A DNA stretch of 64,000 bases from Sphaerolaimus hirsutus (Eukaryota > Nematoda > Chromadorea > Monhysterida > Sphaerolaimidae). Positions 9,292-57,509 of this stretch are shown here, one piece after another. The position numbers and the translations under genes were made by a program. Numbering within the stretch: the stretch's first letter is position 1; the number at the start of each line of letters is the position of its first letter. The notes below the pieces were generated by a model. That model saw only the letters and a program-made list of their open reading frames with translations. It made no database searches and had not been told where the DNA came from. The stretch is taken from positions 16,742,701 to 16,806,700 of the forward strand of contig OZ038450.1 in the NCBI GenBank assembly GCA_964036195.1, written 5' to 3'.

Positions 9292-12200
9292 GTCCGTTTT
9301 TGGGTTGGGTGGGAATGTTTTTGGTGGGGTACTTTTTGCAGATCCTGTAAAATGTCGTGTAAAGTAGGGATGGGCGGCGCTTTTTTCTACCGCTTTTTAA
9401 AAAAAACGCCGCTTTTAAAAAAAGCGCTGACTAAAAAATTGGCACTTATGCACTAGGTTTTTTTGCAATTTTTTTGCATACAAGCGCGTAATTTCACTTG
9501 CAAATTGCCATTGGTGGTTGTTTTCATTGGTTTTGTGGCATTGTTTCTATTCCTGCATGGTATCATGTAAAAATAAGTTGTGATTTGTCAGTGTAGTAAA
9601 AAATATCCAGCCGATGTGCTTCCACACACTTTTCTGGTGTGAAACATCACTGTCATGTATTAGCCTTCTCTTATAGCCGTTTTTAAGCACTATTCCACGC
9701 CTAACTTCACTTGCAGTCAAGAAACATTCAAAAACAGTGATATACATAACGAGTCGAAATAAAATTGGATTTTTTGGCAGAAATCAGCACTTATAATGCT
9801 ATCCCATGATTACACAGCCATTCTATGGCTATATATCATCACAAGCACTGCCACTTGTCTGATATGCCTGTAGATATTGACTCAGAACCATATTTGGGGG
9901 CTGTTTAGGTAACGTCTTGACATTTTTTGAAAAAAAGCCAAAAAACCGCGTTTTTTTTTAAAAATGCGGGGCCGTTGACAACAAGCGTTTTTTTCTATCT
10001 CTAGTGTATAGTTTCTAGAGTCATGAAAACACCCCCCCTGGAAAATGACATATCAAGCATGCTGTTTTCCAGGGTATCTTTCCATTTCTTTAGACTCTAC
10101 GTGACATTTTACATATTGCGGGGCATTTTACAGGGTCTCGGAATGGCACCCGATGTTTGTTGGTGGTTCTTTTTATTGTTGTTCTTTGTTGAGTGCAAAG
10201 TAGGGGTTTTGATAGGTAACGCTAAGTCTCCACACCATTCCGGACAGATAAATGGCTGTAAAAAGTTTCTAAAGCGGCGGGCTCGCGGGGTTTCAATACT
10301 TTTTCAAGATGTAGCAGGCAGAAACAAAAATCGCTAATAATACGTTAAAATAGCCAGAAAAAGGTAAAAGTAATCAAAAATATTCATGTACAACAATACG
10401 TCGCAAAGCGAAAGGGTGAAAAAGTGCAAAAATTTGCGATTTTTAACTGACCATTGGGACTAATTCGCTGAAAATCTCCTCCATAATCACACTCCAGTCC
10501 ACCTACCCAAACTCGTCGCAGGTGGCCGTGCACTGCAAGGAGGGCAAGGGCCGCACCGGGGTGATGATCTGCGCCTACCTGCTCTACTCTGGCCGCTTCC
10601 ACCGCCCCATGGAGGCGCTTCAGTGCTACGGCCGCCAGCGCACCATGGACATGCACGGGGTGACCATCCCCAGCCAGAAGCGCTACGTCGAGTACTTCCA
10701 TTGGCTGCACAAGACGGGCACGAGCACCAGACGCGTGCCCATGCTCATATCGGGCATCTACCTGGAGCCGCTGCCGCACAGCGGGCTCGCGCCCAAGGCT
10801 TGCGGTTGGTTTAGAGATTTGTTGTATTTATTTGCGCAACCAATTCGCGAGCTGTATAAATGTGTCTGCACTTACAAGTTTTCATCGTGACTTCTATGAA
10901 AACAGAATTTTTTTTCAAATGCAAATTTATCATCATGGCGTTTTGATTTAGTTGAATTTAAATTTGAATTTATGAAAGTTTTAATTTGAAAATTTGAAAA
11001 CTAAAATACATATATCATACAAGAGTAGGCTGAATGGCGCTACGCACACTGAAGCCGAAATATTCGGCATACACACGTTTTTGACAAATGCCGAATTAAA
11101 TGCTGAATAGAAAAAAACTTGCTGAACTCAAATCGTCCGTACTCTTGAAAATTAGGCGGTTTGTCAATTCAGCATGTATTTCAGCATTCAAAAGATGCGT
11201 ACACTTTTTCATGCGGAAACATTCAGCAATAGGATAAAATCTCAAATGCTGAAATGCAAAGATAAACGAGGATTGGTTTTTGAGATCTCGGGATCGGATC
11301 GGGATTGACCTTTTGGTATCGGGATCGGGATTGGTTTTTGAGATTTCGGGATCGGGATTGACCTTTCGGGATCGGGATTGGCATTTTTCGGGATCGGTAA
11401 TGGCATTTTTGAAAACATTCTAATATACACGTTTTTTGCCAATGTTTTCACAAAACAGGCTCAAAAACACGTCTGGATGCCAGAAAAGAGGCATAAAGTG
11501 GACATTGGTTAAAATTTATTAATGCAAAAAGGGCATTTAATGAGGTTGACCAAATTTTCTGGGATCGGGATCGGGATTGTATAAATTTTTTCGGGATCGG
11601 GTTTGTGATTTTGAAAGTTTCTGGATCGGGATCGGGATTGGCTTTTGAGATTTCGGGATCGGGATCAGGATTGAGGTTTCAGGATCGGGATCGGGACCAC
11701 CAAATCCCGAAATGTTTAGGATTGGGATCGGGATTCCGTTTCGACCCTAGTGCCAACCCTATCCAATATACATAATCACTATTGTCTATTGACTGAAGTT
11801 GATGCTGTACAGAGAATGTAACTAATTATATCTTGTCATAAAGTTGACATCAAAAATTGTCATCAATTATATCTTGTCACACACACTAGTCAGGGGTAGG
11901 AAAGGGGGGGTTCCCCCCCCCCAAATCGCCCAGCTATCTATCTATTCCAGAGGCCGCTCAGCTATCTATCTATCCCGGAGGCAAAATTTTGGGCTACTAT
12001 CCCCTAAACCCCTCCCCCCAATCGGCCAGCTATCTACCTATCTGGAGCGATTTTTGGGAAACTATACCCTAATTTTCGCTCAAAATCGCTCTTTTCATAC
12101 CTATATATAGATTTTCACCTCCAAAATCACTAGTTCGTGCATCTAACTGCCTATTTTGAGCTATTTTTAGTACTATATGTCCTTATATACCCATTTTTAG

Positions 12201-18200: not shown

Positions 18201-21200
18201 AGGGTGGTGGTAGCCAAAAAATAGTCTCTAGAATAGATGATAGATGGGCGGTTTGAGGGGGAGGTAGGTTCCCCCATCTTTCCTACCCCCGTCACCAGTT
18301 AACATGAAAACACGCAGGAAAAACTGCTGCATTTCTCGTTCAACACGTTTTTCCTGTGCGACGCGGCCGGCGCGCCCAAATCGTACGAAGGCGACGACAT
18401 TAGCAGCGGTTTGGTGACTCACTGGCCGCCGCGCGACGGCGACGAGAATGCGGAAAATGTGGACAGAAAGAATGACGAGTCCGCGCCGGAGGATTTGCTG
18501 CCGCCGGCGTCGAAAGATTGCACTATTTGTGCCGTGCAGAGCGATCGTGAGTGTGGCTGTACTTGGTTGACTTGATAGTCTGCACTCGCACTTATTTATG
18601 TCTCACTTTGGAAACGTGCCAATGATAACTGAAGAATGCGATTTTTGTAAAATACCTATGAAAAAATTTCATGGTTGTGAATGCGTTAACGTAAGCAGAA
18701 ATGACGTTTTCAACTTTTTTTTATGAAATCGCATACGTTAGATATCATTGGCATGCTTCCAAGGTCCAAGGTGTATAGTTGTCAACCGGAATTTTCAAAG
18801 CTGATAAATCTGTTAAACGCATTTGAGTTTACCGGAATGACGCACCGCACACTCAAAATTTTCAAGGGCGGTTCGAACGTTTTTGAGTTCCGCCAAGGCA
18901 GAACTCCTAGGGCGGTTCGAACATTTTTATTTAGGAAAAATGTGGCATTTTTGGGACATTCGGATGAAGTTCACACGAATCCGGATGAATTCACGCAGTT
19001 TTTGTCCATTTGAATATCATAACAAAACGTTTCAAAAACATTGGGACACTTTCAATTCAGCCCTTGACTTAAGAGATACGCCCTTTAGAGAAGGTTGTTA
19101 TGGGAAACATCTTATTTATCTTAGCAAACATATTTGTGAAAAAAAAAGTTTATAGGTAGATCTAGGCTTTGTCTTCAAAAATGAATAGAGAATTTTTTTT
19201 GTAATATCCACTTGTTTAAAAGATATTGAAGTTCCTGTGGCATATTTGTGAAAACCGAAACTGAATTCCACCCTCTAGTAAGTGTCCGAATGTTTTCCTG
19301 CCTAGATGGCGCACTGACACTCAAAATTGTCAAGGGCGGTTCGGACGTTTTTGAGTTCCGCCAAGGCGGAATTCCAAGGGTGGTTCAGACATTGTGCACT
19401 TTTCTACCTGTCTGAAATAATTCCGCCCATGCACAATCCGGGGCAATTCCGCCATCGTGCAAAGTGTTCGAACGTTTCATGTGCGGAATTGAAATCGAGG
19501 GCATTTCGAACGTTTTTGGATTCCGCCCCCGTTTTTAATTCCGCCCTTTTGAATACCGCCCTTGAAAAAGTGTTCGAACTGCAACTGAAAATTCAAGTGC
19601 GCCGTGCAACATTGAGATCACTGTTGATGGATATCTAAAAAAAAATCAAATTTATGGTAAATAATAGTCAGATAAAATTGAAAGAACCCGGCTCATATCA
19701 GGTGCCAATCCCAGACCCTGTAAAATGCCAAATGTTATGCAAAATGTCAAAAGTCATGTAAAATCCCCAGCAAAATGGCTTTTGACACTTTGCATTACTG
19801 TTGACAGGGCATTTACCAGGGCCTGGGACTGCCCCCACGTCGTTCTCGCCGAAGCAAACATCACATCTAACCCAACTTTTGCCGCGCAGCCGAACCCGAG
19901 TCGTCCGGCGAGTACTACGTGCCGCGGCGGCGGATCAACTTGGACGGGCGGCCGGAGGCGGCGAGCGGCGGCGGCCCGATCCAGTGCGTCCGCGACGCGC
20001 CGGCGGTCAGCGGCAGCGTGCGCGCCTACATTCTCGACTGCATGGACACGGACGAGTTCGCGCCGCAGACTGCCGCCGCCGCCGCCGCGGCGTCCAATGC
20101 GCCCAGTGTGGGTTTGCTGGGTGATTGTGGGGTTTTAATCTGTGGTATGTAATGATGGCAAGCGAAAATTCGATCTTTTTCGTAGTTTTCGTATTTCATT
20201 ATTATTTCAATTTTTGTTTTTTATTTCACTACTAGCAAAATACTTAAAAATCGACTCTACTTTTTCTGTATTTTTGGCGGGAAATGCAACACAACAAAAA
20301 CAGCAGAAACCCGATTCAAAATATAAATTTCACATCGATTTATTCAATGGCGCACCACACACTGAAATTTTGCGTTCAGCGTTCGAACGTTTTCGCACGC
20401 TGAACTACAAACGCTGAAATCAAAATCTAAAGAACACAGCGTTTTTGAACCGTAAAAATTTCGGCTCGAATGTAAATTACGCGAAGAATTACAAATTCCG
20501 AATTTTTACGCTTCAAAAACCTTGTTTTCTTTAGATTTTGATTTCAGCGTTTATAGTTCAGCGTGCAAAAACGTTCGAACGCTGAACTCAAAATTTCAGT
20601 GTGCGGTGCGCCATTGCGACAGAACAAAATTTTTGCAAATAAGCCGCTTGAAAGGTCGCAAAATCGGTAACAGCTTGAAAGGCCGCAAAACCTGAAGATG
20701 TATTCAAAATTCAGCATAAAAATACGAAAATGCAATTTTTTAGTTGAACAATATCGAAAATTCGCTAGATTCTACTTTCCGTCCGGTTTGGCTCGCTGCC
20801 CGATTGTGCTTGGGAGTTTTTTAGGCGTTGACCCCGCCTTGATGATGAACTCAGGTCGGGGTCGGCGGCGGGATGGATCAAAGGTTTAATGCCATGGGAT
20901 TAAGTTTGCACTCACTTGGGATTAGTTGGGTGTGGTGCCTTAAATAAGACTTGTGTGTGCACTTATGACCGGTAGAATTTTGATGGGCATTGAACAGACA
21001 CAGACACAGACACAGATTGTCATGAACTCTGTGCATGTACGTAAAAAATGATTCTGATCGGCAATGAGCTAAAAGCTGTTTGCATGGAATTATAGGCGAT
21101 AATCTGGGGTGTTTTCCGCAAGTGGAAAAGTTAAATCCTGTGAGAAGTGAGTACTGATAAGTGAAATGGCAAGTAAAGAGTAAAACTCGATGTACAATGA

Positions 21201-24200
21201 GAAGAACAAAGTTTACTTCATTTTTACTTGCCATTTTATTTATTACTTCTCATGTATCTTCTCACTCTACATCTAAACTTGATTAAAAATTTGAAGATGG
21301 ATTTCTAAAATGTATTTTTGTAAAAGTTTTAATTCACTATTGCCAACGATTTATGCCTATGTAAACGTCGAATAGACATAACATGTAAGTACACATGGAA
21401 AGTATTAATCCGGTCGCATTCAACCTTTGATCCATTCCGCACAAAATTGTTGGCATGAAAAGTGTCAATTCAATCAGCGCAATTAATACGCGTGCAGTGT
21501 GGGTTTCATTAGAAAATCAACCACATGCGTATAATTTGGTCAGCAGACGCCCGCTTTATAAAAAACGTCCCGCGTGCAACCCAAGCCAAGCCAAGGCCGG
21601 ACGGAAAATACAGTCAATCGAAAATTCGAGAAGCATTCCAAAAAATCGAAAAGTATTTTTGGGGAAATTTAACCTCATAAACCATTTAAATCGCTTCCCG
21701 CATCCCCGCAGTCGAGTCGCCACCGGCCGCCGGCGGGCAGAACTACAACTCGCAGCGTATCGGCGCGGCCGCGCGGCAGCACTGGCGGCGGCGGCGGCGG
21801 CAACAGCTCGCAGCACTTGGACGCGCAGCCCAAGCGGCCCATGGAGCGGCAGAGGAACTGCGCCAGCGAGACGCACAGCTTCGCCAAGTGTGGCGCCGAG
21901 GCCGCCTCCACCAGTAAAGCGACCATAAGTGGTTGGTTGGCCTGGTGCCAAGGTTTAAACGGGATTGATTTTACTTATAGTCCTGGCGTCGCTTGGGTCA
22001 GTATCGATTGTTTTTCGTATTTTTTCGACACGCCGCGCGCCATTTACATTTGCACGTTTGAGGGGTCAGAGCGGTACGCATCAAAGGTGCCGATTTGCGA
22101 CTAGATCCGACTCCGACTAGTGTGTGGCGTGCGTGACAGAGTGCACTAATGAATTGCCACACACACTAGTTGACATCGACAGCAGATGTCAACTGGTTCC
22201 CACCCCAATTAAAAGCTTGCTCACGAGCCGACGAGCGACGTTCAAGTGAAAGTGTTGTGGTCTGTGCAAAACGCAGAAAAATTATTGCGGTATGTGCAAT
22301 GTATACGGCCGGCATGAAGTAATATGTATACGATGCGTATTGTTATTCGCTAGCAAGCTTTGAATTGGGATGGGAACCAGTTGACATCTGTTGTCGATGT
22401 CAACTAGTGTGCGCGGGGTCAGTATTGGCAAAATCTTGAAAAATTGGAAAATTATTTATAATTTGGTAAAAATTTATAGGGAAACACAATTGAACACATT
22501 TGAATCTGTTTTGAACACATTTGAGTTTACTGGAGCGAGGAGTCTGTCAATTAATGCTGATGGTTTAATTATATTTTCTCAAATCACCCGTTTTTTCAAT
22601 ACAGTACAAATATCGGCGGACATCACACTTAGTATGACAGTGGAAGCGAGTGCGCAATATTCTTTATCGGCGAACATCATAATTCCCCCGACATAATCCC
22701 CCAGATTAGCACGCTGGTTACATCAGAGTGACCGCACAATACGCACGTAATTCGGCACACGTCTAAAAAATATCTAAATACAGTTACGCATACCCAATTT
22801 AGCTGCGCGAGAGAGGGGCCGAGTTATTCCCGTTTCTCGGGCAGTATCTGATGACCGCTGCGCGCGTGCTGCAAACAGACGCACTGCTATCTAGGACTAT
22901 AAGTATACCTAACCGATTTTTCGGGATCGGGATCAGGATCGCGATGGTTTTTTGACATCGCGGGATCGGGGATTGGGGTCACGGGATCGAGATCGGCATT
23001 GTTTTTTAGATTTCGTGATCAGGATTGCGGAAACACGGTATCGGGATGGAACCACAATTTTTTTCCGGGTTGGGAATCGGGATCCCGTTCGAACCCTAGC
23101 CTGGTTCCACTCCCAAACCCTGTAAAATATCAAATTTTCTTTTCTTTTTCACCGGTCGTTTGACATTTGATATTTTGACATTTCGTGTGGACATTCGACA
23201 TTTTACAGTCTCTGGGAGTGCCCCAGAGTTGCGAAAGCGTATTTACGCTTACCCGAAATACCCGGGTAAATGGGTATTTATACTTACGCTTACGCTTACG
23301 CTTTCATAAAATACCCGTACGCTTTATTACGCTTTCCCGGTCGAAATACCCGGGTACTAAAAGCGTAAAAAAGTTTTTCACATGGTCCGGTTTGAAAAAG
23401 TGAACGAAACTGCATACAAAAAGACTGCATGTGTACAGTAATGCATTTGAAATAACGGCACATGTATTTTACAAATTGTGTCGCAATTAACGATGGCAAA
23501 AAAAGATTCAAAAATTCGAAAACATTTTTCATCGAATTTTTTCATAATTTTCGAATTTTTATTTCACCCGTGAAAAAAACACTTGAAAATCGATTTTTTC
23601 AAAAAAGTCGAAAATGCATAAATTCGAAAATAATTTTCGAATTTTTCAGGGAATTCAAGGCCACAAAACGTAATCTTAAGTTAAATGTGATAAATTGATC
23701 CGCAATTGATATTTAGTGCGTCTGAATAAGTGTGAAGTAATGGAAAAAATGTCAAAAACGTTGAAATGGCATTCGTGGTGGACAACGACACATCCATTTC
23801 GGAATGCACCAAGCAACCGGATCTATTGCAAGTACAATGCTCTACTACCACGACTATTGAACTACTGACCCCCCGCCTAGTGATTTAAATGCGCCATAGC
23901 GCTGGAGCTTGGTGCTAGCGCCAAAGCAAAAAGCGCAATAACGCTTTTGGCGCTTGGCACTATTTTTGCCTGGCGCCAGGAACAAAACACTTGGCGCTGG
24001 CGCTTGGCGCTAGTGCCAAAGCAAAAAGTGCCATGGCGCTTCTGGCGCTTGGCGCCAAAGTCCTGGCGCTTTTCACATAACTACTGGCCCCGCCCACTAG
24101 TTTACCATTATGACATGTCAACTATTTTGGTAAACTGTTTTGACAAAACAGTATGAAACACTTAACAGAGTTGTACAGTGTTTCATACTGTTTTGTGAAA

Positions 24201-26056
24201 CATTTTACCAAAGTCTTGAAAAATGCTCTGGAAAATGGCAAACTATGCTAAATTTAGCTAAACTAAGGTAAATTACAGTTAAAATAAGGTTAAAAGGTGA
24301 TCCAAACCTTAAAACTATCCAAATACAGCATTTAAAGGTTCAAATTCAACAGTTTAACAAAAAAAATTGAAAGTTGCCCAAAAAGATTCGAAAATTTAAA
24401 AATTAAATTCGAAATTCGAAAATTATTTTGAAGAAAAATTCGAAAATTCGAAAGTTCATTTCAGAAAAAAACACTTAAAAGTTTAAATACCTTTTTCTGG
24501 GGGGTTTGCCATCATTAGTCGCAATATGAATGTCTCCTTTATACCGTGTCATCGGGCGAAATATTTTAGATGGCTTTAGATGGCAATGGCTTCAGAATAG
24601 AAATTATCTGACCGAAAATGCACAAGTTCGAAAATGAAGATGACATAAGTGTATCTTACGTTTACGCTATACAAAGAAATGAGGTAAATATTTATGAGAA
24701 TTATGCATAAATACATCGCAAAAATCGATAGGACAAAGTCATAGTTCGGAAATGAAGATTAATTAACTGGTGCTGTCGATTAAGTGCCATCAACATCTAA
24801 GGGCAGATTACCAAGTGGACATCTGAAAAATGTCGCTGAAAGCTTGATTTTTAACGAATTCACTGAGCAAAAAATCCCTGAAATTTTTTACGCTTACGCT
24901 TTATTTTACGCTTTCCAAGGTTTTTAAAAAATACCTTACGCTTTTAGTATCCACACTCAAAATTTGGAAAGTGTATTTACGCTTACGCTTACGCTTTCCA
25001 AAAATACCGGTATTTTAACAACTCTGGTCAGTGCCCCCTGATCTCATTGGAAATTTGTCCATTTGTCCGCTTCTGTTCCGATTACAGATTGATTCATTTT
25101 TCCATTTTTGCGCGCAGATGCCGTGTGCCCCCGCTGCAAGGCGCGCGCCGCCCTGGAACTGTCGCACTGGTCGGCCAATTTCGGCGCCGTGCCGCCCGGC
25201 CACCACGTGCTCACGCTGCAGAAAGACCAATTAGATAGAGCTTGTAAGGATGTCAATCATAAGAAATTTCCCGCCCATTTTTGGGTGGGTTGGCTTGTTG
25301 GAATGTTTTTTGTTGTTTTTATCTGGTTTTCGTTTGGTTGTGATGTTCGTACGGGGCGGATACCGGGTTTATCACACACCTTACCATAAACACTGCTTAC
25401 ATCAATCAAGAGTCAATTTTCCACCACTATACTCAGATGAAACGGTAGCTCTTCCATATGAAAAAGTGACCACTGGCCACTCACGGACGCCTTATAAGCC
25501 GACAGGCACACACATATTAAGTTTCACACGCGCGTCTGTTCGCCTTCCATTTAAATGAGACATATGGCTTGGGTTTACTACCGTCACACACCTTAAACAC
25601 ACCTTACCATATCCCCCAGGTGCACCTGGTAGCGCGGTGCATCAGCGAGGGCGACGCCGACTTCATAGAGCAGGCGCGCGCCGCCAGCGAATTCGCCGCC
25701 GCCGCGGCCGCGTTCAGTCAAAACAGCGGCGCGAGGGGCACAAACTTCTACGACTGCGCTGACCCCGCCGCCGCGTCGGCCAGGTGCCAATCCCAGACCC
25801 CGTAAAATGCCCTGTAAAATGTGAAATGTCATGCAAAGTGTTAAAAGTGATGTAACGTTTGCCATTTTAACGGACATTTTACATGACTTTTGACACTTTG
25901 CATGACATTTAACATTTTACGGGGAATTTTACAGGGTCTGGGAGTGCCCCCAGACGCCCGTCGTCGGTCGATTCGAGCTCGTCGGCGAACAAGGACGTCG
26001 GCTCGGGCCCCCCGCCCGCACCAGTGCACTCTGTGGCCCGGCGCCGGCGATGCTAA
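9133..26056 (+). CDS. PTEN: PTEN-family phosphoinositide 3-phosphatase, gene span (partial 5')
   Basis: PTEN dephosphorylates PtdIns(3,4,5)P3 at the 3 position at membranes and opposes PI3K/AKT signalling. Exons assigned: 9133-9291, 10522-10804, 15337-15371 (less sure), 17256-17500, 18318-18546, 19890-20107, 21712-21913, 25118-25284, 25620-25783, 25954-26056. The phosphatase domain shows the D-loop (MDDHHPP), P-loop [10 protein letters not shown] and TI-loop VTIPSQKRY. The C2 domain shows [21 protein letters not shown] and [17 protein letters not shown]. The total is about 600 codons against 403 in human, and most of the excess lies in one C2 loop. The first 66 residues of human PTEN, including the PIP2-binding motif, have no counterpart before 9133. 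The P-loop has Glu where human has Ala126. The C-terminus ends ARRRRC instead of the PDZ-binding TKV. Phases agree at every junction except those of the 15337 exon. Other PTEN-like families (TPTE, tensin, auxilin) fit the C2 and C-terminal match less well. Confidence 0.9.
9337..10155. mobile_element. CCTGTAAAATG fold-back split by a hAT-like insertion
   Basis: The left arm (CAGATCCTGTAAAATG, 9337 on) and right arm (CATTTTACAGGGTCTCGG, about 10117-10145) are inverted partners of the family seen at 19695 and 25784. They are separated by a complete AAAGCGC element at 9365-10003. Confidence 0.8.
9365..10003. mobile_element. hAT-like MITE with AAAGCGC arms, copy 1
   Basis: Begins TAGGGATGGG, ends CTATCTCTA, flanked by GTGTAAAG and GTGTATAG (7 of 8 match). 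Short arms contain poly-T/poly-A with GCGC. The about 450-bp core (TGCATGGTATCATG..., CACTGCCACTTGTCTG) recurs at 35101-35774 and 39183-39551. Confidence 0.88.
10522..10804 (+). CDS. PTEN: PTEN exon: catalytic P-loop and TI-loop
   Basis: 94 codons plus one base (phase 0 in, 1 out), acceptor cgcag, donor gttggt. It encodes [20 protein letters not shown], where Cys and Arg are the catalytic CX5R residues. The position after HCK is Glu, while human PTEN has Ala, TPTE/VSP have Gly and tensin has Gly. The exon continues YGRQRTMD and [14 protein letters not shown] (TI-loop) into the start of the C2 domain ([14 protein letters not shown], matching human ETIPMF). The reading frame is intact. Confidence 0.95.
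11265..11755. mobile_element. Decayed GATCCC-array element
   Basis: GGGATCGGGATTGG arrays on both sides of a short core (11410-11550), ending CGTTTCGACCCTA. The left terminus is lost. Confidence 0.75.
11891..12370. mobile_element. hAT-like MITE, CAGCTATCTATC family, complete
   Basis: Begins CAGGGGTAGG and ends ATACCCCTG, with a perfect 8-bp duplication ACACTAGT at 11883-11890 and 12371-12378. Arms have poly-C and CAGCTATCTATC phrases, and the core is AT-rich and non-coding. This copy defines the ends of the family seen at 1890, 6851, 27900 and 50170. Confidence 0.92.
12371..12963. other. AT-rich intron stretch, no gene
   Basis: Low-complexity AAAATAAAATAAT runs at 12540-12650 and short imperfect repeats of ACAATTTTACT. 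No exon or element end recognised. Confidence 0.6.
12964..13534. mobile_element. hAT-like MITE with TTTTCCG arrays
   Basis: Begins TAGGGTGACAAA and ends TTTTGACACCCTA. The whole interior is a degenerate array of TTTCCGTTTTCTGG, in one orientation on the left and mostly the same strand sense throughout, with a tiny core near 13290. Flanks GGCATGCT and GGCACGCG match at 6 of 8 positions. Confidence 0.82.
13579..14107. mobile_element. hAT-like MITE with GATCCC arrays, copy 2
   Basis: TAGGGTTCAAACGGG...GTTTGAACCCTA with a perfect 8-bp duplication CTCATGTA (13571-13578, 14108-14115). The core (13765-13925) is nearly identical to copy 1. Protein frames such as the RDRDRD series are array translations. 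Confidence 0.94.
14628..15182. mobile_element. hAT-like MITE with GATCCC arrays, copy 3
   Basis: Same ends as copy 2, with a perfect 8-bp duplication CACCCAAG (14620-14627, 15183-15190). It lies only 27 bp outside the end of the 3.6-kb element. Confidence 0.94.
15337..15371 (+). CDS. PTEN: PTEN exon candidate: C2 strand
   Basis: After acceptor ttgtag the frame [15 protein letters not shown] aligns with human PTEN QFVVCQLKVKIYSS. The incoming phase (2 bases completing a codon) fits the donor of the previous exon. The best donor (gtattc) leaves phase 0, which does not fit the next certain exon at 17256 (needs phase 1). Either the donor lies elsewhere or the exon at 16097 intervenes. An open frame continues to a good donor (gtatac) at 15529, but that part is not PTEN-like. 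Confidence 0.5.
15690..16075. mobile_element. AT-rich stretch and decayed palindromic mariner-like MITE
   Basis: 15700-15830 is TAATTA-rich simple sequence. From about 15878 (TATACTGGATGGACAGATCG) to 16070 the inverted phrases AATTCTACCATATT and AATATGGTAGCTTG mark a decayed relative of the palindromic MITEs at 39278 and 48338. Confidence 0.5.
16097..16203 (+). CDS. Possible exon, [12 protein letters not shown]
   Basis: GC-rich stretch after an acceptor ccttag with an open frame [19 protein letters not shown] followed by [12 protein letters not shown] and a stop. Composition is like the neighbouring exons. No donor gives phase 1 for the exon at 17256; gtggca would leave phase 0. It could be a C2-domain exon of the PTEN gene, an alternative terminal exon, or a relic. 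Confidence 0.3.
16250..16603. repeat. Decayed CAGCTATCTATC-family fragment
   Basis: A poly-G run at 16335-16352 followed by GTAGATAGCTGAC and AT-rich core phrases. No gene. Confidence 0.6.
16604..17022. mobile_element. CCGTATTT-family MITE flanked by TA
   Basis: TA-CCGTATTTCCTCGAAATA at the left and GAGGAAATACGG-TA at the right. G-rich arms enclose a core with AATGCATCAATAAC and a terminal TTTACACTCAATTTGGG. TA flanks point to the Tc1/mariner type of insertion. No ORF. Confidence 0.85.
17256..17500 (+). CDS. PTEN: PTEN exon: C2 domain, acidic insert
   Basis: Two bases plus 81 codons, acceptor cgcag (phase 1 in), donor gtgtgc (phase 0 out). Begins [12 protein letters not shown], passes through an acidic stretch [13 protein letters not shown], and ends [18 protein letters not shown], aligned with human CGDIKVEFFHKQNKMLKK. 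The acidic part is an insertion relative to vertebrate PTEN. Confidence 0.88.
17560..17890. repeat. CCCGGTGCCCAAGTA array
   Basis: The 15-bp phrase CCCGGTGCCCAAGTA and variants (CCGGTGCACAA, GTGCCCAAGTAA) recur about eight times at 17635-17740. They then appear in inverted sense (TTACTTGTGCACCGGG) at 17755-17880 around a short centre. This looks like the arms of another short element. Intron sequence. Confidence 0.8.
17905..18310. repeat. GGCGCCATGG and CAGCTATCTATC relics in intron
   Basis: TAGTGATGGAATGGCGCCATGG at 17918 is the terminus of the GGCGCC family. 18120-18290 holds a decayed CAGCTATCTATC fragment just upstream of the next exon. No gene. Confidence 0.6.
18318..18546 (+). CDS. PTEN: PTEN exon: C2 domain NTFF strand plus loop start
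   Basis: 76 codons plus one base, acceptor cgcag (phase 0), donor gtgagt (phase 1 out). [14 protein letters not shown] matches human DKMFHFWVNTFFI. It then runs into a long acidic, unstructured tract ([29 protein letters not shown]) ending [10 protein letters not shown]. In human this place is the short loop before residue 280. Confidence 0.93.
18836..19612. mobile_element. GGCGGAATTC-family repeat, copy 2
   Basis: Reverse-orientation copy of 1052-1862, starting GCGCACCGCACACTCAAAA. Both copies keep the same order of GTTCGAAC and GGCGGAATT units and the same AT-rich core. Confidence 0.82.
19695..19850. mobile_element. CAGGTGCCA fold-back family, intronic copy
   Basis: Starts ATCAGGTGCCAATCCCAGAC and ends GGGCCTGGGACTGCCCCCA, with inverted arms TGTAAAATGCCAAATG and CATTTACCAGGGCC. 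It ends about 40 bp before the exon at 19890. Confidence 0.82.
19890..20107 (+). CDS. PTEN: PTEN exon: expanded C2 loop
   Basis: Two bases plus 72 codons, acceptor cgcag (phase 1), donor gtgggt (phase 0). Encodes [18 protein letters not shown], a Gly/Ala-rich stretch and [18 protein letters not shown] followed by a run of alanines from GCC repeats. Nothing in human PTEN corresponds; it extends the loop begun in the preceding exon. Phases on both sides are exact. Confidence 0.8.
20340..20618. mobile_element. Fold-back element with GCGCACCACACACTG ends
   Basis: Near-perfect inverted halves meet around 20465. The left half reads TGGCGCACCACACACTGAAA and the right ends TTTCAGTGTGCGGTGCGCCA. Motifs GTTCGAACG and GCTGAA resemble those of the elements at 1052 and 11035, suggesting a related superfamily of ends. 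Confidence 0.85.
20820..21711. other. Intron with one fold-back element, no exon seen
   Basis: 21105-21265 is an imperfect palindrome (AAGTGAAATGGCAAGTAAAG against TTTACTTGCCATTTTA). 20996-21012 is a short CAGACA repeat. The remainder is AT-rich intron without recognisable content. Confidence 0.6.
21712..21913 (+). CDS. PTEN: PTEN exon: expanded C2 loop, Gly-rich and basic
   Basis: 67 codons plus one base, acceptor cgcag (phase 0), donor gtaaag (phase 1). Encodes [13 protein letters not shown], a Ser-Thr-Gly6-Asn stretch, then [16 protein letters not shown] and [14 protein letters not shown]. Chosen over two other open frames because only this one joins its neighbours in phase. The whole exon lies within the enlarged loop. 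Confidence 0.75.
22150..22412. mobile_element. Fold-back with CACACTAGTTGACATCGAC ends
   Basis: CACACTAGTTGACATCGAC at 22150 is inverted at 22390-22412. Each arm itself contains an inner inverted repeat (AGTTGACAT, ATGTCAACT). Another half occurs near 60487. Intronic, non-coding. Confidence 0.8.
22905..23222. mobile_element. Decayed GATCCC element followed by CAGGTGCCA-family fold-back
   Basis: 22915-23098 holds GGGATCGGGATC arrays ending CGTTCGAACCCTA. 23099-23222 holds CCAAACCCTGTAAAATATC against GACATTTTACAG and CTGGGAGTGCCCCAG. Confidence 0.75.
23224..25026. mobile_element. CAGAGTTG hAT-like element with TTACGC arrays, 1.8 kb
   Basis: Starts CAGAGTTGCGAAAGCG and ends TTAACAACTCTG. Arms are ACGCTTACGCTT arrays with CCCGGGTA and CCGGTATTTT. 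It contains a GGCGCC segment at about 23885-24075 and imperfect palindromes. Flanks GAGTGCCC and GTCAGTGCCC are similar with an offset. The smaller relative at 47143-47899 has a perfect duplication. No transposase frame. Confidence 0.82.
25118..25284 (+). CDS. PTEN: PTEN exon: last part of C2 domain
   Basis: Two bases plus 55 codons, acceptor cgcag (phase 1), donor gtgggt (phase 0). Encodes [17 protein letters not shown] and then [20 protein letters not shown], closely matching human [20 protein letters not shown], and ends FPAHFW (human FSPNFK). The CPRC pair is an addition not in human PTEN. Confidence 0.93.
25285..25619. other. Intron without identified repeats
   Basis: 335-bp intron of ordinary composition. 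Short phrases ACACACCTTACCATA repeat at 25374 and 25597. No element end recognised. Confidence 0.6.
25620..25783 (+). CDS. PTEN: PTEN exon: end of C2 and tail
   Basis: 54 codons plus two bases, acceptor cccag, phase 0 in, 2 out. [20 protein letters not shown] aligns with human VKLYFTKT at the last C2 strand. The tail then diverges, with an alanine run and [17 protein letters not shown]. The donor is AG|GTGCCA, which is the left terminus of the element forming the next intron. Confidence 0.9.
25784..25953. mobile_element. Intron made entirely of a CAGGTGCCA fold-back element
   Basis: The 170-nt intron starts GTGCCAATCCCAGACC and ends GTCTGGGAGTGCCCCCAG. About 70 bases from each end pair with each other (TGTCATGCAAAGTG against CACTTTGCATGACA). 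The same sequence is dispersed at 9337, 19695, 23099, 35960 and 46597. Phase 2 on both sides is correct only if exactly this piece is removed. It resembles an introner: a transposon carrying its own splice sites. Confidence 0.85.
25954..26056 (+). CDS. PTEN: PTEN last exon with stop
   Basis: One base plus 33 codons and TAA at 26054-26056. Encodes [25 protein letters not shown] and the terminus ARRRRC. The Ser/Asp tract recalls the phosphorylated tail of PTEN. There is no PDZ-binding motif. The basic run followed by a terminal Cys is unusual. Confidence 0.85.
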
Positions 26057-26172: not shown

Positions 26173-26900
26173 CCGTCTCGCACCCTGAAAAATGGACTAT
26201 TTTAGTGTTAAAATGCCATTTAAAATGTCACACTGATCATTTATAATAGATTTTACTTTACACTTTACATGGTGCGAGACTGCCCCGCGGGAGTCGTGAC
26301 ATTCATTAACTGATTGATCATGTCTGAAATTTTTCAGTGTTTGTAGCCTGTCTGATAGTTTACGGAGGCCGGGGGGGGGGGCTAAGCCCCCCACCCTAAA
26401 ATTTTACCTATAGAATGGCGGAATGTGGTCATGGCGCTGGCGCCATTAGTAGGCGCCACGCCATGGCGCAATTGGGGTGGGCGCCAGCGCCATGGAATGC
26501 TGTATATGTAGTAAATATACATACAGATGCAGCAAAACGCTCACCATTCAGTGTATTTATAACGATTTTAAGCCACATGGAGCAAATCTGATGATAATAC
26601 CTTGTCTGTGGTGAAAAAGAGGGTGTAGCGGCCGTAATGAAAGCCTGGCTGTAATGTATGCCTACCCGGCCGTAATGAAAGCCTGGCCGTAATGTAGCAT
26701 CCCCTACATTACGGCCAGGCTTTCATTACGGCCGGGTAGGCATACATTACGTCCAGGCTTTCATTACGTCCGGGTTTTCATTACGGCGAGGCCCCCGTCG
26801 GTGAAAAATGCGCGCTTGCGCGCAATTTTTTTTACGCTGCCGTTGAAAAAGTCGCATTTTCCGGTCACTTTCTGGTCTCGCCCCGGGAAGGGGGGGGGGG
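26173..26900. mobile_element. Cluster of fold-back relics
   Basis: 26173-26290: inverted CGTCTCGCACC / GGTGCGAGACTG arms. 26350-26490 and 26800-26900: halves of the CAGGGACGTA family (GGCTAAGCCCCCC, TCGCATTTTCCGGTCAC). 26625-26785: a palindrome of GGCCGTAATGAAAGCCT units, four on each side of about 26703, inserted between the halves. No gene. Confidence 0.75.
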
Positions 26901-35959: not shown

Positions 35960-36195
35960 TACAGAGATCTGGGGACGGACCCGGACACCACAAAGTGTAA
36001 AGTGAAGTGTCAAATGTCATGCAAAGTGTCACGTCATGACAATTGTAAAGAAAAAAAACGATTTGGATACAAAAGCATAAGACCTGGATACAAAAACGTA
36101 AGGTTTGGATACATTATTGACACTTTACTTTACATTTTTCATGACATCTGACACTTTGCATGACATTTTACACTTTACAGTGTCTGGGATTGCCA
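35960..36195. mobile_element. CAGGTGCCA fold-back family, diverged copy
   Basis: Arms AAGTGTAAAGTGAAGTGTC and GACACTTTACTTTACA, with terminal CAGTGTCTGGGATTGCCACC. The centre has a triple repeat of TTTGGATACAAAA. Confidence 0.8.
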
Positions 36196-36407
36196 CCTGA
36201 TGGTAAATTATAGTGAACAATGAATGGTGTAAACTCTCAAGTAAACTGTCACTGCAAGTAAACTCAACCCTCAATCAGCCCTCAATAAAAGGCAAACTAC
36301 GTAATGAAAGGCATTCAACAAAACGCGATATACATAAGGAAACGAGTCAATACAAAACTTTTTTGACAGAAATCACTTGTAATGCTATACCATGCTTCAC
36401 TAGCTGA

Positions 36408-38020
36408 GATTGTGCTCTTTCAGAAAATGTACACGTTTTGGAGTGTTTGCCATAGCCACTTTATGCCTAAGAAACAAAAACATGAATACAAGTCAATTAA
36501 GGCCGATTGAATCGCAATTCACGCCTTAACCGTTCTTGGTGAATGGGGGTAGACACACACCATTGTGTAGCTGAAATTGAGACCTTTCAGAAAATGTACA
36601 CGTTTTGGGGTGTTTGCCATAGCCACTTTATACCTAAGAAACAAAAACATGAATAAAGTTTGATTCTGGCAGATTGAATTGCGATTCACGCCTTAACTGT
36701 TCTTGGGGAATGGAGGTAGACATGCACCGTTGAGAAGCTGAGATTGTGCTCTTTCAGAAAATGTACACATTTTGGGGTGTTTGCCATAGCCACTTTATAC
36801 CTAAGAAACAAAAACGTGGAAAAAAAAGTTGATACTGACCGATTGAATCGCGATTCACGCCTTAACAGTTCTTGGGGAATGGGGTTAGACACACACCATT
36901 GCGTAGCTGAGATTGCTCTTTCAGAAAATGTACATGTTTTGGGGTCTTTGCTGTAGCCACTTTATACCTAAGAAACAAAAACGTGAATAAAGGTCGATTC
37001 TGGCCGATTGAATCGCTATTGACGCCTCCGCCTCCAAAGTGGCTATGGCAAAAACCCCAAAACGTGTACATTTTCTGAAAGAGCATAATCTCAGCTACGC
37101 AACGGTGCGTGTCTACCCCCATTCCCCAATAACAGTTAATGCGTGAATAGCGATTATATCAGCCAGAGTCGACCTTTATTCACGTTTTTGTTTCTTAGGT
37201 ATAAAGTGGCTATGGCAAACACCCCAAAAAGTGCACATTTTCTGGAAGAGCACAATCTCAGCTACGCAACGGTGTGTGTGTACCCCCATTTCCAAGAATG
37301 GTTAAGGCGTGCATCGCCATTCAATTGGTCAGAATCAACATTTTTCACGTTTTTGTTTCTTAGGTATAAAGTGGCTAAGGCAAACACCCCAAAATGGGTA
37401 CATTTTCTGAAAGAGCACAATCTCAGCTACGCAACGGTGCATGTCTACCCCTGTTCCTCAAGAATGGTTAAGGTGTGAATTGCGTTTCTATCAATTCCAT
37501 GTTAAAATGCTCAATTATGCTATTTATGAGAGGAAACTAAAAAAATGAAAAAATGATTTTTTTATCAGTGCTGTATAGGCAACAATTTCAGAAAATGAAA
37601 AAATTTTGGGTGTGTCCAAGTTTTGGCCACTGACTCGTGGACAGACTCATATATAGCCAATGGAATGGCTGTGAAGCATGGTATAGCATTACAAGTGATT
37701 TCTGTCAAAAAAAAGTTTTGTATTGACTTGTTTTGTTACATATTTATATCGCCTTTTGTTGAATGCCTTTCGTTACGTAGTTTGCCTTTTGGTGAGGGTT
37801 GAGTTTACTTGCACTGACAGTTTACTTGAGAGTTTACACCATTCATTAGAATGCCATTCTACCCCAGTTCCCCAAGAACGGTCAAGGCGTGAATCGCGAT
37901 TCAAATCAGACAGAAACAACCTGTGATCACATTTTTGTTTCTTAGGTATAAAGTGGCTATCGCAAACACCCCCAAAACTTTGTAGATTCTGCTAGAGCAC
38001 ACTCTCAGCTTCACAACAAT
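36408..38020. repeat. About 170-bp tandem array with an internal inversion
   Basis: A unit with TTTCAGAAAATGTACACG, TTGCCATAGCCACTTTAT and CACGCCTTAACCGTTCTTGG repeats about four times in one sense from 36408 to about 37025. It continues in the opposite sense to about 37470, with another inverted-sense unit at 37850-38010. Frames inside (for example FLFLRYKVA) repeat with the unit and have no independent support. Confidence 0.9.
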
Positions 38021-46327: not shown

Positions 46328-46985
46328 ATGTAACACATATATAGTAGACATTGGGGCCAATGCCAATACGAATCTCGCCATGGCGCGGCGTCTACAAATA
46401 GCGCCAGCGCCATGACACCATTTCCTTATTATAGGGAACAAATTTTAGAGGGGAGGGCGTCGCCCCGCCCCGTTCGCCGGGCTCCGTATACAATCCGCCC
46501 CCCTCGCTCAAAAATCCTGGCTACGTCCCTGCCCCCGCAGGAGCAATTTACTATCTATATGAGTCCCTGTGGGGGTCCAACTCTGCAAAACCCCTGCCCT
46601 AGTCCCAGACGCTGTAAAGTGTAAAGTCAATCAAAACAAAAAAAAATTACAGAACCTTGCATGACAATTGACACTTTACTTTACATTTGTCATGACAATT
46701 AACACTTCACTTGACATTTGTCATGACATTTGACACTTTCCTTTACACTTTACAGGGTCTGGTATTGGTACCAGCTCTAGCACTTGAACCACCTGCTGAA
46801 GCCCACCAGATATCTGCAGACAAGCATGGTTGGTCACTGGGCACATTTTCACGTGAGTGGGTGGTAGGGTTGGGAATTTTAAAATTTTTGGTTCCAGTTC
46901 TCTGTTCCACAAGATTTAGGTTTGGATATTGGTTCTTAGTTCCAATTCCTAATTTCAGATCTTTCTGTTCCAAAATGCCCATAAT
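46328..46985. repeat. Remnants: CAGGGACGTA half, CAGGTGCCA fold-back, CCGGAACC-like array
   Basis: 46380-46531: right half with AATCCTGGCTACGTCCCTG. 46597-46770: inverted arms CCCAGACGCTGTAAAGTG / CACTTTACAGGGTCTGG. 46867 onward: TAGGGTTGGGAATTTT and GGTTCCAGTTCT repeats, the left end of the CCGGAACC family. Confidence 0.75.
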
Positions 46986-56440: not shown

Positions 56441-56592
56441 CGTTGTTTGTACTCGGATTCGACATCTACTTTTTTAAATATTTTTAGTTTTTGTGAAAGT
56501 GCATAAAATACGTGTTCTGCTCGCGCGTTATCGGCCAAAACATACCGTATTTGCTTGAATAGTTCCCCCTGAATAAATCCCACCCTTAAAGC

Positions 56593-57120
56593 GGGAATTA
56601 GAGCTCAGCGTCGATTCGACGTGAAATGATGACGTGAAATGTTGTCGTGAAATTAATTAAACGAGTGTGGATCATGCTACGGGTCTACAATTTTCTAAGG
56701 ATAATATATGAATCAATACCTTAATCGTGTCCAATACTGAGTGTTATCAGCCACAACTAGAGCGAATTGAAAAATTCAATTTTTATCATTTCACGTCATC
56801 ATCATTTCACGTCACAGTGTCAGGGAACAACTTGACATTTCACGTCAGACTATTGCAAGCAGCAGTCTGACGTGAAATGTCAAGTTGTTCCCTGACACTG
56901 TGACGTGAAATGATGATGACGTGAAATGATAAAAATTGAATTTTTCAATTCGCTCTAGTTGTGGCTGATAACACTCAGTATTGGACAGATTAAGGTATTG
57001 ATTCATATATTATCCTTAGAAAATTGTAGACCCGTAGCATGATCCACACTCGTGTAATTAATTTCACGACAACATTTCACGTCATCATTTCACGTCAAAT
57101 CGACGCTGAGCTCTAATTCC
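56593..57120. mobile_element. 528-bp near-perfect palindrome with CACGTCA motifs
   Basis: GGAATTAGAGCTCAGCGTCG at the left is the reverse complement of CGACGCTGAGCTCTAATTCC at the right. The halves match over about 255 bp with very few differences around a 14-bp centre (56851-56864). Each half carries four or five copies of TGACGTGAAAT. No TIR-type family partner elsewhere in the window. Confidence 0.95.
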
Positions 57121-57509
57121 GGCCTAAGAGCTTTGATCAATTTGTTGTGCCTAATTTTAGCAAAGCACGTTATTGTGTTAATGATGCAGATTTCGTGAAA
57201 TGGCGTGATCGAAACAGGCTCGAAAATTTTGATGAAGTAATAATCCCCCCTCGCATAGTCCCCCCTCAAAAAAGTCTGAGGAAGTAATAATCACCCAGGG
57301 GGATTTTTCAAGCAAATACGGTAAGTGATTCTGAGCGCATAGTTTCGGTCCGCCGATTATTATAGTTGAATATCGACAGTTTCTCACCAAAGCTTTTATT
57401 GCTCCGGACAATGTTTTAAACAAAAATAGGTAGACTGACAAATTCGGAAAATGTTTACGAAATGCAAAATAGCAGTAAAATTGTATATTAAGCCAGATCA
57501 TCAAGGGAG
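57121..57509. repeat. Fragment of an element with GGGGGATTATTTCAAGC ends
   Basis: 57240-57320 has CCCCCTCGCATAGTCCCC and CAAGCAAATACGGTA. Same kind of right end as at 5590 and 7865. The rest is unassigned. Confidence 0.6.

Follow-up and report, generated by a model that had tools for sequence, protein, structure and literature searches.

A 64,000-nt stretch of the genome of the nematode Sphaerolaimus hirsutus (contig OZ038450.1, positions 16,742,701 to 16,806,700; hereafter the window) contains a PTEN gene on the + strand, the last intron of which is very probably an introner. Judging from its sequence, it arose when a non-autonomous NuwaI-type (PIF/Harbinger-related) element inserted into a CAG of a PTEN coding exon. 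The family to which this copy belongs can, with high confidence and on the same kind of evidence, be regarded as an introner family. The host gene is identified by its catalytic (phosphatase) exon, which matches PDB entry 5bug (E 2e-24), and by a match of its C2 domain to Pfam PF10409 (E 1e-5, slightly under the family cut-off).

The first-pass annotation, made from the letters of the window, had proposed that this intron is exactly one copy of a dispersed fold-back element. This is borne out: the 170-nt intron contains an inverted repeat with arms of 73 nt each (25783–25855 and 25879–25951, 88% complementary), and related copies are present elsewhere in the genome. RNA folding of the 170-nt piece with 20 nt on each side gave −115.5 kcal/mol (z −14.6 against 200 shuffles). 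The annotation's phase assignment also stands, as removal of 25784–25953 joins phase 2 to phase 2 and is followed by 34 open codons until the stop, while the unspliced sequence meets a stop no more than 8 codons past the junction. It was wrong in seeing no clear target-site duplication (TSD). Comparison with the rest of the family revealed CAG at both 25781–25783 and 25951–25953, and it is this correction that supplies the mechanism proposed below. The intron is composed of a 167-nt fold-back element and one copy of the 3-bp target duplication.

The whole genome (348.5 Mb, 762 contigs) was searched with the PTEN element, returning 3064 first-look candidates; among the 40 that were scored, top identities were approximately 80–88%. 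Thirty loci and a further 12 were read and 33 elements kept, with those set aside comprising two at sites already counted, three without a clear end pair and four with duplicated flanks. The element has two different ends in these 33 copies: end A is GTGCCANTCCCAGACCCTG, and end B, read inwards, is mostly GGGGCASTCCCAGACCCTG. GT is found at both ends in 3 of the 33. The third base is G in 35 of the 36 GT-starting ends and in 24 of the 26 GG-starting ends, out of 66 ends in all. Identical 3-mers lie exactly outside the ends in 22/33 elements. At control offsets, matched 3-mers numbered 14 and 12 one step to either side, where the 3-mer still overlaps the true position, 2 and 6 two bases off, and 0–2 at three or more bases. 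The 3-mers are CTG/CTG in nine elements, CAG/CAG in eight, matched with another sequence in five and unmatched in 11. Since the matched 3-mers fall exactly at the ends, the element, by the evidence of these flanks, duplicates 3 bp of its target, which is mostly CWG. Inverted ends together with an exact 3-bp TSD in 22/33 copies give the family the signature of a mobile element.

A strict two-ended pattern was then applied across the genome, finding 83 CAG/CAG and 49 CTG/CTG copies, and none with backward-read control patterns. The first-pass annotation had counted a lack of other genomic introns made of the family among the findings that would speak against it. This check came out in its favour: 83 copies carry both of the ends it named, in generalised form, and many of them are exact, frame-restoring inserts within coding exons at the DNA level. 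Similar introns thus reach to both borders in unrelated genes, as expected of introners, and if splicing occurs at the duplication, the PTEN copy and the 83 CAG/CAG copies all have a canonical 3' AG. A CWG site on one strand is also CWG on the other, so CAG and CTG copies should be equally numerous if neither insertion nor survival has a preference between them; the CAG excess is significant (83 vs 49, p=0.004), also when duplicate flanks are dropped (76 vs 47, p=0.011). Mixed duplications lean the same way, with left CTG and right CAG in 14 copies and left CAG and right CTG in six (p=0.12), a lean that a preference for AG on the right would produce, though it is only suggestive. Three coding-looking copies with mismatched duplications (L016, L019 and L022) keep the right CAG while the left copy differs (CTG, TTG and CCG), as selection on the right-hand AG would predict. 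Some insertions occur in two or more copies with similar flanks (L010/L015/L018/L025, L058/L186 and L048/L049), probably because the gene or segment was duplicated after insertion. Such duplicated segments should be useful for dating.

Placement within genes was tested by taking out the element and one 3-mer and seeking a Pfam domain across the rejoined junction. Among CAG/CAG copies, the junction is spanned by a DB module (L003), a eukaryotic RNA-dependent RNA polymerase domain (PF05183; L036), the glutamine amidotransferase domain GATase_7 (L062), the ligand-binding domain of a Cys-loop channel (L066), an enoyl-CoA hydratase (L112) and a SET domain (L172). The DB module is typical of nematodes; a search for the SL1 sequence gave 0 hits, which is not decisive for or against a nematode host. 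A metallo-beta-lactamase-superfamily match (E 8e-5) likewise spans the junction of L139, which has a left CTG and a right CAG. Two further matches begin just past it: NIPBL (7w1m, E 2e-12) two residues beyond the junction of L012, and a weak C1 domain (E 0.003, under cut-off) four residues beyond that of L023. No Pfam family was found for L048, L060 and L111, three of the nine CAG copies in one batch, nor for six of eight CAG copies and both CTG copies in a further batch.

The copies also show a bias of strand. The first 89 distinct strict copies were screened for frames without a stop over 25 codons or more to either side, with the same filter on both strands, and 56 sense and 44 antisense frames passed. 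At E 0.01, the sense frames matched 18 Pfam families (counting overlapping models, and with matches that need not span the junction), including at least 11 individually identified loci at E<1e-4, and the antisense frames matched one weak family, DUF3439 (0.0013). A codon-usage model for calling the coding strand blind was weak, giving the sense strand as best in 24 and the antisense strand in five of the 89 at threshold 0; one of the five antisense calls, L075, is a Pfam-supported sense gene. L041 lies in a gene on the other strand and has GT at both element ends, so that its gene again sees CAG↓GT...CAG↓ (arrows mark predicted junctions). The bias of Pfam matches towards the sense strand argues for removal from RNA; from these sequences, removal looks strand-dependent, like splicing and unlike DNA excision.

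This bears on the possibility that the elements are excised from DNA in the soma with one target copy precisely restored, as PIF/Harbinger elements can be. Excision sites of mPing are indeed repaired precisely via the target duplication, according to the available text of PMC4561436. Excision of this kind should ignore the strand of the gene, in conflict with the single weak antisense family set against 18 sense families, and the two antisense copies followed by eye (L020 and L040) appear to sit inside ordinary introns with their own splice sites. We consider it very unlikely and reject it on the strand bias of the Pfam-supported frames. Less probable still is that a miniature inverted-repeat transposable element (MITE) merely filled an old intron, its ends matching the splice sites by chance. 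The window is rich in fold-back elements (171 inverted-repeat pairs of at least 25 nt) and, as the first-pass annotation had noted, copies of the family do lie inside longer introns, for example in PTEN at 19702–19835. Chance filling is nonetheless rejected, because in PTEN, as in numerous genes unrelated to it, the element ends exactly at both splice sites and the junction carries the target duplication.

We therefore favour the introner reading, for which the following mechanism is proposed. An element, presumably mobilised by a NuwaI transposase, would have inserted at a site empty in the ancestor and duplicated its 3-bp target, giving CAG-[GT...CCCC]-CAG. The left CAG and the first bases of the element, GT, would form the 5' splice site CAG↓GTGCCA (CTG↓GTGCCA in CTG copies). 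The right CAG would serve as the 3' splice site; in CTG copies this would be CTG↓G, working less well. The spliceosome would then take out the element with one CAG, returning the mRNA to its pre-insertion sequence and restoring the reading frame, while the long stem may hide internal AGs and draw the two ends together.

Assignment to NuwaI is based on target and termini, from which the family appears to be NuwaI-type. NuwaI is a group of PHIS (PIF/Harbinger-related) transposons with a CWG TSD and terminal inverted repeats (TIRs) that usually start with GGG, reported from animals only in the portion of PMC4482050 available. The TSD of the present family is likewise mostly CWG (CTG/CTG or CAG/CAG in 17/33), and its end B starts GGGG..., fitting the TIRs described there. 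End A differs in starting with GTG rather than GGG, and an intron-making role does not appear in that portion of the NuwaI description. In searches of an open-licence library, no introner was seen to be traced to NuwaI. The terms introner and Harbinger were found together only in a study of fungal introns, and the papers listed for NuwaI comprise PMC4482050, a paper on Spy transposons (PMC11304231) and unrelated matches.

Several observations weigh against the introner reading. The C-terminal tail of PTEN encoded 3' of the intron gave no significant homology on search, so the case for the PTEN intron rests mainly on the element family. On their own, open frames are a poor guide to the strand (at 25 codons per side, 55 sense vs 37 antisense for 76 CAG copies and 26 vs 24 for 47 CTG copies), and the strand argument therefore rests on homology. 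A transposase gene with the family's ends (GGGGCAGTCCCAGACCC plus CWG) was not found in a search with the PF13359 profile, which gave at least 163 matches with 150 of 306 candidates scored and one locus read. That locus, a PIF/Harbinger-type copy (L195, C7:3242500–3247700), has ends that differ from those of the family. Finally, seven CTG/CTG copies interrupt domains that become continuous and in frame once the flanks are rejoined, and none of these copies offers a terminal AG. A CCG/CCG copy (L006), at which a Pfam match to calcipressin stops exactly at the junction, perhaps also interrupts its gene without a terminal AG. GT-AG splicing at the duplication is thus not the whole story.

The same profile search showed that a PF13359 transposase family is abundant and apparently young in this genome, with more than 100 similar matches. 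Its domain match is approximately 190 nt longer than the model and contains four in-frame TGA codons in most rows, probably owing to an intron.

The CTG/CTG set had been chosen as a control, expected to lie outside exons. The seven copies that rejoin conserved domains in frame are found in a sugar transporter (L004), two trypsins (L005, the right end of which is one base short, and L076), two kinases (L083 and L090), an SLC6 transporter (L122) and, weakly at E 3e-4, a papain-family protease (L130). No Pfam family was found for L118 and L125, two of ten CTG copies in one batch. If removal is exact, the terminal dinucleotide of coding CTG copies is TG rather than AG. These copies, and perhaps the CCG copy, could be spliced as GT-TG introns where the next exon starts with G, the hairpin hiding internal AGs and holding the true end beside the 5' splice site. 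This would complement the introner reading, and we give it an even chance.

Of the 17 CTG copies read as coding, 15 have the usual internal AG 19 nt upstream of the end; pairing it with the element's GT shifts the frame. Ordinary GT-AG splicing at internal sites could nevertheless serve many of these copies when scored by frame alone, regardless of stop codons in the retained stretch: five of 15 tested have an internal AG in frame with the element's own GT, and eight more have in-frame pairs from deeper GTs only (13/15 in total). The remaining two, L125 and L130, have no in-frame GT/AG pair within 45 nt of each end, and in L130 the element's final 97 nt are free of AG. The human TG acceptors described in the available text of PMC2374985, which occur only as alternatives to a nearby AG, also speak against GT-TG splicing of this kind.

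The base that follows the right 3-mer is more favourable to it. G is next in 17/17 CTG copies read as coding, compared with 13/30 others (p=7e-5). These coding calls are partly by-eye readings, but 15 of the 17 were made before the G was noticed. For CTG copies supported by Pfam or PDB the figures are 9/9 vs 21/38 (p=0.017), with the match lying beside rather than across the junction in four of the nine. A split by open frame, free of such reading, is not significant (17/22 vs 10/18, p=0.19), and G is in any case common after the right 3-mer (30/47 CTG and 39/76 CAG copies), the target looking like CCWGG. In seven CAG comparison copies G is next in one (1/7); L070 among these has a weak match, and the identification of L111 is tentative. 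A requirement for G at +1 of a TG acceptor would be expected of a weakened 3' splice site and would be hard to explain with the junction elsewhere.

It is also conceivable, though unlikely, that the CTG copies lie in dead or polymorphic gene copies and that only CAG copies are functional introns. The 83 to 49 majority of strict CAG/CAG copies fits this, as does the location of some insertions in duplicated segments. The coding-read CTG copies are, however, no younger than the CAG ones (their divergence from the consensus has a median of 0.104, n=15, against 0.088, n=24). Open frames and domain motifs nevertheless persist in the flanks of these CTG copies, and a neutral history is not expected to yield a following G in 9/9 or 17/17 copies. 
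Returning to the GT-TG possibility, we tentatively suggest, with slightly less than even confidence, that in an animal a single transposon family gives rise to introns of two types, depending on the target base: GT-AG introns where it enters CAG, and constitutive GT-TG introns where it enters CTG, the latter only before G (CTG↓G). The long hairpin would hide internal AGs and bring the two ends close to each other, and the CCWGG target preference would double as a splice-site preference.

Other copies in the window are decayed (Table 1). A core search returned 22 matches at up to four mismatches, other repeats among them, compared with three in each of three shuffled sequences. The family's core matches are at 9336/10142, 19709/19828, 23111/23217, 36189 and 46603/46764, with a related pair at 26176/26279. 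The first-pass annotation had placed copies at 9337, 19695, 23099, 35960 and 46597. Core matches do occur there, with the qualifications that 9337 and 10142 are read as the two ends of one interrupted, degraded copy and that decay has badly affected the left end near 35960. The pair at 26176–26279 forms a second, related fold-back element (core TCTCGCACCCTG) immediately 3' of the PTEN stop codon. A separate, mobile-looking block at 23226–25030 starts with AGTTGCGAAAGCGTATTTACGC, ends with similar sequence inverted, and was apparently inserted where the 23.1-kb copy ends on its right. Other families account for dense nested inverted repeats at 36400–38020 and 56570–57140 (255-nt arms at 89% and 129-nt arms at 98%).

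Table 1. Features of the last PTEN intron and other family copies (window positions).
Feature	Position	Strand	Basis
Penultimate PTEN exon (164 nt), with ...GGCCAG at its end, where the final CAG is the left target-site copy	25620..25783	+	Acceptor CCCCCAG↓GTGCAC; in-frame translation
Left target-site duplication copy, CAG, retained in exon	25781..25783	+	Offset set from family: identical 3-mers on the two sides in 22/33 elements
NuwaI-type fold-back element (putative class), 167 nt, orientation A->B (GT end toward gene 5' side)	25784..25950	+	Inverted repeat; length and ends from genome copies
5' splice site GT (predicted), from end A (GTGCCANTCCCAGACCC)	25784..25785	+	At least one GT-starting end in each of 33 elements; 36/66 ends
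Internal AG (TTTTACAG), 19 nt upstream of intron end; use would shift the PTEN frame by one	25933..25934	+	Sequence
Right target-site duplication copy, CAG, source of 3' splice site AG (predicted)	25951..25953	+	Sequence, family comparison
Last PTEN exon as predicted, through stop TAA	25954..26056	+	Open frame once spliced, GC-rich; without homology
Second copy, within a longer PTEN intron; flanking 3-mers CAG/CAC; decayed	19702..19835	+	
Third copy, within a PTEN intron; decayed, ends approximate	23104..23223	+	
Copy outside PTEN; clear right end, badly decayed left end (approximate)	35972..36196	+	
Copy outside PTEN; decayed, ends approximate	46597..46771	+	
Remnant in the PTEN intron preceding the catalytic exon, read as a single copy that a later insertion has split	9336..10149	+	

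The origin of introns is an old question, and animal examples of intron-making transposons are few. A CWG target already provides the three bases with which a good exon, and likewise a good acceptor, would end; a minor change from GG to GT at the tip of the element could therefore make a MITE an intron maker. The CTG copies are a natural experiment with replicate introns, which could establish when TG is accepted as the only 3' splice site and whether hairpins and a +1 G compensate. If GT-TG splicing is real, annotation pipelines that enforce GT-AG would miss real exons in the host species, and a source of GT-TG introns would go beyond a new introner family.

The family resembles the introners surveyed by Gozashti et al. 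2022 (PMC9860276; comparisons here are with its available text) in comprising short non-autonomous elements with TIRs and TSDs that form exact introns in many genes. Across animals and land plants together, that survey found just two groups with introners, both of them animals. Its Chrysochromulina introners differ in having 4-bp TSDs and no evidence of TIRs, and a CWG target with a ready-splice-site CAG form and a tolerated CTG form is not described in the available text. Taken as an introner on these sequence features, the element would represent a new family, distinguished by a novel target logic, in an animal genome, in genes such as PTEN, NIPBL and SLC6. Among introners that combine hairpins with unusual borders, the closest parallel, going by the accessible part of PMC7789003, is the dinoflagellate Amoebophrya, whose introner elements share inverted repeats, direct repeats of 3–5 nt at exon borders, hairpins and many non-canonical borders. 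Borders in Amoebophrya are highly varied, whereas in the present family variation is confined to the 3' dinucleotide and the intron as a rule starts with GT. The TG 3' splice sites of human genes are similar in forming GT-TG introns with a nearby AG and in preferring a purine at +1 (PMC2374985, available text). In the human cases an AG no more than 28 nt away is always available besides the TG, while in at least some CTG copies TG would have to be the sole productive site; constitutive TG introns in such number, if real, would be new relative to that account.

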